This document shows positions 20,572 to 61,676 of a DNA stretch of 64,000 bases, in pieces (position 1 is the first letter of the stretch; every line of letters starts with the position of its first letter). The position numbers and the translations under genes are program-made. The stretch lies in the NCBI RefSeq assembly GCF_000620125.1, contig NZ_JHVL01000003.1, forward strand, positions 62,001-126,000. The letters are read 5' to 3'. Under the pieces are notes generated by a model. The model was not told where the DNA came from. It saw only the letters and a list, made by a program, of their open reading frames with translations, and searched no databases. The stretch comes from Clostridiisalibacter paucivorans DSM 22131 (GTDB lineage: Bacteria; Bacillota; Clostridia; Tissierellales; Clostridiisalibacteraceae).

Positions 20572-20617
20572 ATATAATCCATGCAAACAAAAGTACTTTT
20601 GTTTGCATGGATTATAT
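20572..20617. repeat. Perfect 46-bp palindrome between fabF and rnc
   Basis: Arms of 23 bp are fully complementary around a central GTAC with no loop. It starts 44 bases past the fabF stop codon. As RNA it would form a very stable hairpin and probably ends the fab operon transcript, though the bases after it are only weakly U-rich on either strand. Its perfect symmetry also allows a protein-binding or cruciform role. Confidence 0.85.
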
Positions 20618-38453: not shown

Positions 38454-38494
38454 CTCTAATAAATCAGCTTCTATCTCAATTAAAAATAAAAACA

Positions 38495-38588
38495 GTTAGT
38501 AGCTAGTTGCTAGTAATCAATAGACCAATGATGAAATTCTATAGATTTCTACCATAACCTACTAACTACCAACTGCTAAACTACTAAC
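38495..38588. repeat. GTTAGTAG hairpin repeat, copy 1
   Basis: Starts GTTAGTAGCTAGTTGCTAG and ends with CTACTAAC; the outer 8 bp are perfectly complementary and the rest pairs imperfectly (the right arm reads GTTAGTAG, then CAGTTGGTAGTTAGTAG when reversed). It fills the recG-yloV gap. Related elements occur at 54398 and 60702. Confidence 0.65.
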
Positions 38589-38592
38589 TATA

Positions 38593-54304: not shown

Positions 54305-54397
54305 CTTACCAATCCCTTTTAAAATTATATGTTTATTATAACATAATCAAACTCCAACAACTGAATTATAGAAAACACTATTTTAAAATATAAAAAA

Positions 54398-54457
54398 TTA
54401 GTAGTTAGTGGCTTAATATAAAATCTCTTATACTAACTATTAACCACTAGCTACCAA
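54398..54457. repeat. GTTAGTAG hairpin repeat, copy 2
   Basis: TTAGTAGTTAGTGG pairs with CCACTAGCTACCAA (13 of 14 positions, one G-T), and TTAATA/TATTAA extends the stem inward after a one-base bulge. It lies in the 220-base priA-coaBC gap, which otherwise shows nothing but AT-rich DNA. Confidence 0.65.
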
Positions 54458-54524
54458 CCATCAATTTACTTCATAAGCACTGATTGTCTTTATAACTTTA
54501 TTATGAATACTTTATAAAAATCAA

Positions 54525-60701: not shown

Positions 60702-60756
60702 AAGTTAGTAGTTCGTAGTTGATGGAAAAATGAAAAATCCCTTTAACTACGAACTA
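60702..60756. repeat. GTTAGTAG hairpin repeat, copy 3, between convergent rqcH and pyrD
   Basis: AAGTTAGTAGTTCGTAGTT on the left; the 12-bp stem TAGTTCGTAGTT / AACTACGAACTA (60709-60720 and 60745-60756) is perfect over a 24-base loop. The right arm contains the last codons and the stop codon of pyrD. It could end transcription from both sides, but no good U-run follows. Confidence 0.7.
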
Positions 60757-61676
60757 TATATCTCCAATTTTCCAATAATCTCTGATACATCTTTTATGTT
60801 ATTTTTTTGCATATATTTTTTCAATTCTACTAATAATTCCACAGTCAATCTTGGATTTACTAAATTTCCAGTTCCTATAGCCACTGCACTGGCACCCGCA
60901 AGTAAAAACTCTATAACGTCAGTAATATTCATTATGCCTCCCATGCCTATTATTGGAATTTTCACAACTTGGGCTACCTCCCACACCATTCTCAATGCTA
61001 TAGGTTTTATAGCTGGACCTGATAATCCCCCCACATTATTTCTCAATATTGGTTTTTTAGTTTTTATATCTATTGCCATTCCCAATAATGTATTTATAAG
61101 ACTTAGACCATCTGCTCCTGCTTTTTCAGCCATTAATGCTATTTCTTTTATGTCTGTCACATTGGGAGACAATTTCACTATCAAAGGCTTTTCGGTACTA
61201 TCTCTAACCGACTTTGTAATCCTATATACCATATCCTTATCTGTGCCAAAAGCAACCCCTCCCCGTTTAACATTAGGACAAGATATATTCATCTCTATGG
61301 CATCACATCTACTCTTATCAATTCGTGCTGCCATTTCACAATATTCTTCTATAGTGTTTCCTGATATATTAGCTATAATCGTAATATTCTTGTCCTTTAA
61401 ATAAGGAAGTTCTTTATCTATAAAATATTCTACTCCAGGATTTTCTAATCCCACACTATTTAACATCCCTCCAACAGTCTCCGCTATTCTAGGAGATTTA
61501 TTCCCCTTTCTAGGTTTAAGAGTCAATCCCTTAACTGAAATAGCACCTATATTAGCTATGTCCATAAACTCTTCGTATTCTCTCCCAAATCCAAATGTCC
61601 CCGAAGCTGTAATAATAGGATTTTCTATTATTAGTCTCCCAATATTTGTATTCAGATTTATATCTCTATTATCCAT
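60747..61676 (-). CDS. pyrD: Dihydroorotate dehydrogenase B, catalytic subunit (PyrD class 1B)
   Basis: FMN enzyme of pyrimidine synthesis, partner of PyrK. Seen are NPIITASGTFGFGREY, SVKGLTLKPRKGN, NISCPNVKRGG (catalytic Cys), KLSPNVTDI and GMGGI...AIGTGNL. The 309 residues are usual. Its end lies in a repeat element, which supplies the last residues (YSS) and the stop. The start overlaps pyrK by eight bases. Confidence 0.97.
   Translation of the reverse strand: MDNRDINLNTNIGRLIIENPIITASGTFGFGREYEEFMDIANIGAISVKGLTLKPRKGNKSPRIAETVGGMLNSVGLENPGVEYFIDKELPYLKDKNITIIANISGNTIEEYCEMAARIDKSRCDAIEMNISCPNVKRGGVAFGTDKDMVYRITKSVRDSTEKPLIVKLSPNVTDIKEIALMAEKAGADGLSLINTLLGMAIDIKTKKPILRNNVGGLSGPAIKPIALRMVWEVAQVVKIPIIGMGGIMNITDVIEFLLAGASAVAIGTGNLVNPRLTVELLVELKKYMQKNNIKDVSEIIGKLEIYSS

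Follow-up and report, generated by a model that had tools for sequence, protein, structure and literature searches.

A genome-specific family of dispersed intergenic hairpins built from heptanucleotide repeats in Clostridiisalibacter paucivorans

Three intergenic gaps of the window, meaning the whole 64,000-nucleotide stretch of DNA analysed here (G000:C3:62001-126000 of a 3.25 Mb draft genome), hold members of a dispersed intergenic hairpin family that is specific to this genome and occurs beyond chance. We interpret it as a new REP-like hairpin family of heptanucleotide repeats, probably acting as an RNA hairpin in the 3' untranslated region. The typical element is 97 bp long and consists of TAGTTNN heptads, a 41-nt core and complementary heptads, i.e. 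(TAGTTNN)n-core-(NNAACTA)n. It stands out by a core of its own, by arms that always follow one order and by a strong tendency to sit immediately behind a stop codon.

The original prediction, made from the window alone, was that these gaps hold related hairpin sequence. This was borne out, as recognizable related hairpins were present in all three by both sequence and RNA folding. A covariance model (R1), trained on 44 elements from elsewhere in the genome with the window copies excluded, recovered exactly these three places as its top three matches (Table 1); the next match in the window had an E value of 0.49. RNA folding z-scores of the three copies ranged from -3 to -7.4, and the window holds 6 occurrences of the word GTTAGTAG, where 1.7 would be expected. 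No Rfam match above the gathering score was found in the window. A separate intergenic feature at 20572-20617 of the window is a loopless perfect 23-bp inverted repeat, formed by ATATAATCCATGCAAACAAAAGT and its complement.

Table 1. Positions of the three window copies and their parts (coordinates of the window)
Feature	Position	Strand	Model match or remark
Copy 1, full-length element, exactly 97 nt	38494-38590		R1 E value 4.6e-10
Copy 1 left arm, degenerate TAGTTNN-type heptads	38494-38520	+	
Copy 1 conserved 41-nt core hairpin	38521-38561	+	R1 match 38507-38575; core match 38526-38556
Copy 1 right arm, complement of TAGTTNN heptads	38562-38590	-	
Copy 2, shorter, core diverged	about 54397-54461		R1 match 54395-54460, E value 1.5e-4
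Copy 3, shorter element	60702-60756		R1 match 60702-60763, E value 8e-6
TAG stop of pyrD, contributed by copy 3 heptad	60747-60749	-	ORF 60747-61676, minus strand

Copy 1 is flanked by two minus-strand genes, a FakA-like/DAK2 gene and recG, and 2 nt separate the end of its right arm from the upstream gene's TAA stop. The minus-strand, i.e. transcribed, RNA of this copy folds at -39.4 kcal/mol compared with -19.1 kcal/mol for the plus strand. Copy 2 is located between the minus-strand genes coaBC and priA. Copy 3 separates the convergent pyrD and a gene of the NFACT family, whose nearest named relatives are a Bacillota MAG and Caloranaerobacter at about 60% identity, a result that puts the genome in Tissierellales; the TAA stop of the NFACT gene is 3 nt before the start of the copy. 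That none of the copies encodes protein held generally but not for copy 3, which overlaps the end of pyrD: the C-terminus ...IYSS and the stop are encoded within or beside its right arm (60747-60756). Similarity to solved PyrD extends as far as residue 302 of 309 and stops before the part encoded by copy 3. The location of the last pyrD residues and the TAG in or beside the copy indicates that the repeat has altered or capped the end of the protein.

Across the genome, GTTAGTAGTTAGTRG gave 687 matches with up to 2 mismatches, compared with 12 for the reversed control pattern, in agreement with the prediction of a dispersed family that is not due to chance. Further copies had likewise been expected, their lack being named as the contrary outcome; in addition to the hundreds of word matches, R1, with 150 of 4170 candidates scored, gave at least 150 matches genome-wide, which correspond to at least about 130 distinct places when strands are merged, mostly at gene ends. 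Detailed element statistics were drawn from 1.28 Mb of the 3.25 Mb, in which there were 91 clusters with at least 3 seed matches and 73 distinct cores.

The 41-nt hairpin core has the form TAGTTTAATGATGAAATCC-AYA-GGATTTCYACCATCAACTA, with the consensus TAGTTTAATGATGAAATCCATAGGATTTCYACCATCAACTA. Arm order among the clusters was '+-' in 68 and '+-+-' in 2, with no instance of '-+', so that a TAGTTNN arm is always followed by the core and then by the complementary arm. In this genome the variable NN positions are AG, CT, CG, GG and others. The consensus spans approximately 97 nt, beyond which there are just A/T-rich flanks; an outer flank resembling TGACAAAGGTATAAA was considered as a further part of the element and rejected, as it occurs beside some copies only. 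Element lengths fall at 76, 83, 90, 97 and 104 nt, with 33 of 53 sharing one residue modulo 7, which indicates that copies differ by whole heptads. Longer composites carry additional (TAGTTCT)n or (TAGTTCG)n arrays. A composite repeat at three places (G000:C9:4502-4785, C4:1-150 and C1:64387-64700) has heptad arms joined to a common block, AGAACCCAAATCTTTATTATGATTTGGAGTGAATCGCTTAGTGGTAAAG, and its copies on C4 and C9 share 98% identity.

The complementary heptad arms represent terminal inverted repeats, a feature of MITEs. Of the REP/MITE-like label originally proposed, the part referring to dispersed intergenic hairpins stands, but the unit is a tandem word of 7 bases, so the family fits heptanucleotide repeats as much as REPs or MITEs.

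The elements avoid divergent gaps, with 71 elements in co-directional, 17 in convergent and 2 in divergent gaps against expectations from intergenic bases of 71.4, 5.1 and 13.5. They lay a median of 11 nt from a gene 3' end and 95 nt from a 5' end, and 58 of 71 elements were nearer to the stop than to the next start. Elements at most 5 nt away from the preceding stop were more numerous than in every one of 2000 random placements; with the 60 nt ahead of the next start barred, there were 29 such elements compared with at most 28 in random placements. Stop codons were overlapped by 22 element ends and were TAG in 19 of these, an overlap to be expected in part, since the heptad itself carries TAG as its stop. 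Because a heptad is not a whole number of codons, a run of three heptads offers TAG in all frames to genes reading in from either flank, and this could account for the fixed arm order.

Hairpins at 3' ends that are enriched between convergent genes might be ordinary bidirectional intrinsic terminators. We consider this highly improbable, since the T fraction beside the elements was barely raised (0.43 compared with approximately 0.39) and at least 6 T in 8 were present at just 25 of 182 ends, and the absence of a U-tract makes intrinsic termination unlikely as the main role. In some gaps a separate GC-rich hairpin adjoins the element. Moreover, no element was found in the orthologous region of 80 named relatives, so the presence of the same bases at the same loci in distant relatives, which had been named as the mark of conserved terminators, was not observed.

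The core was oriented with a strong bias relative to co-directional genes (43:14, p 1.5e-4), and RNA from the preferred strand was the more stable in 38 of 47 elements. The same strand was also more stable in 8 of 10 convergent gaps; its greater stability is inherent in the element and does not prove site-by-site selection. The two arms of an element were no more complementary to each other than arms combined across elements (z 0.36), indicating that exact arm pairing is not visibly selected. In the core, stem pairing is retained in GAGAACC/GGTTCTC variants, but most of the compensatory changes come from that one variant, and the covariation may stem from a single subfamily. Of the compensatory stem changes that had been predicted, the arms thus have none and the core has few. 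Hairpin formation characterises the family as a whole, and no selection for exact pairing is evident at individual sites.

The account that we tentatively lean towards is that of dispersed non-coding REP-like heptad hairpins which spread by copying or recombination and were retained at 3' ends. Some copying or recombination process would have dispersed the elements. Retention at 3' ends may be due in part to the outward-facing heptads carrying TAG in three frames, with the consequence that growth into a gene end costs few residues only, and in part to the long hairpin that the transcript forms directly behind the stop. A protective or insulating effect on mRNA 3' ends is ascribed to REP hairpins, and a hairpin placed after the stop could act likewise here. 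Arm length would then be set by slippage, with heptads gained or lost.

The alternative of a MITE or a REP/RAYT-type mobile element, with a trans-acting transposase (Y1/HUH or other) moving a hairpin with GTAG-like feet, appears unlikely to us. The hundreds of dispersed copies with a common core speak for such an element, the inverted order resembles that of REPINs, the location at 3' ends is as described for REPs (PMC3733652), and this genome does carry Y1 genes. However, its RAYT-like Y1 transposase gene (L071 5278-6102, 274 aa) has inverted ends of the GGGGTCAGGCT type, which are unrelated to the heptad family, and no heptad element is located beside it. Y1_Tnp was also undetected in two draft genomes rich in TAGTTNN arrays (G145 and G214). 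RAYT mobilization is therefore not supported, and the mobility of MITE type that had been suggested fared no better: flanking direct repeats, as a sign of target-site duplication, had a mean of 2.12 compared with 2.13 by chance, and no transposase was found between nearby elements in 1.28 Mb of the 3.25 Mb. There were no recent near-identical pairs of single elements, the sole near-identical case being the larger C4/C9 block described above. No empty site was found in the genome, as spanning matches were the elements' own loci with the exception of one 47-nt match.

REPs are high-copy extragenic hairpins located mostly downstream of coding regions, and the GTAG-tagged REP/BIME/REPIN group resembles the heptad family in these respects and in its inverted order (PMC3733652). 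The heptad element is larger and is built of 7-base tandem units; GTAG recurs inside its paired arms rather than forming an unpaired tag at the foot of the hairpin, and a cognate RAYT flanked by the repeats was not found in this genome. The family thus misses two defining REP features, the unpaired GTAG tag and the flanked RAYT.

Among heptanucleotide repeats, the closest in design are the cyanobacterial STRR-type repeats, exemplified by the P6b stem of the Nostoc trnL intron, where the arms consist of complementary degenerate heptads (TDNGATT / NNTGAGT) in variable copy number (PMC4476775). The word is a different one, and the present element is dispersed at gene ends with its own core rather than being a single intron stem. 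The TAACTGA direct repeats of Beggiatoaceae, Cyanobacteria and Bacteroidetes form abundant intergenic arrays and share a similar word (reverse complement TCAGTTA), a patchy occurrence across phyla and stop codons within the repeats (PMC4679880), but those are direct repeats mostly just before starts, whereas the heptad elements are inverted hairpins after stops. The GGGAATC and GGGGA(C/T)T heptads of Xanthomonas and Nostoc are over-represented in intergenic regions, variable in length and in some cases inverted; they are G-rich, are proposed quadruplex formers and are unrelated in word and structure (PMC4692102). The array words themselves were not found in the papers on bacteria that were searched, the sole match being a plant paper. 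The element joins two usually separate literatures, those of REP-like hairpins and of heptanucleotide repeats.

The heptad words were compared across the order and the phylum. A clear word excess was present in only 2 of 60 same-order genomes (G011 and G037), a set with no member of the same genus. Arrays of four TAGTT heptads occurred in 28 of 398 genomes of the phylum, with the highest numbers in G214 (307), the present genome (283), G145 (166) and G167 (37), and with control matches being nearly nil. The array-rich unrelated Clostridia have other NN bases (GC, CA/CG, GT) and no good match to the core; the two-armed arrays found there have an arm order identical to that seen here. R1 gave weak matches in some of these genomes, such as 48 in G145 with a best E value of 3e-6, which we attribute mainly to the arms. 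Tandem 7-mers of all words were found at 14.9 per 100 kb compared with 4.4 in relatives. They were 3 to 6 times denser in array-rich genomes than in relatives, with periods 8 and 9 not raised, although these genomes were chosen by the TAGTT pattern and the density comparison is no fair test of TAGTT being special.

The 7-mer enrichment, the stepping of lengths by whole heptads and the genome-specific NN of unrelated Clostridia would all fit heptanucleotide microsatellites born locally by polymerase slippage and hairpin template switching, without dedicated spreading machinery, and an excess of bacterial heptamers with a slippage model has been published (PMC4692102). This explanation remains doubtful, as slippage fails to account for the conservation of a 41-nt core at non-homologous sites, for the constant TAGTT and for the fixed arm order. 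More speculatively, the TAGTTNN (loosely YAGYYNN) heptad hairpin could be a recurrent bacterial element that arises or moves repeatedly in unrelated lineages, with TAGTT and arm order fixed and NN lineage-specific, because some protein or copying process recognises the heptad of the 5' arm. The TAGTTNN arrays of unrelated Clostridia are natural replicates for the origin of bacterial 7-base repeats and for the question of whether these act on mRNA 3' ends at all.

Searches of viral contigs for the core and of plasmids for the consensus found none. Viral contigs did contain arrays of four TAGTTNN heptads, in at least 120 stretches by a count made without a control pattern. In the same-order genome G011 (L081-L087), TAGTTNN arrays adjoin a repeated hairpin resembling AAATCGACGAAGTCGACTTTGTT and a repeated GGCGAACAGCGAATAGCCTAATT block.
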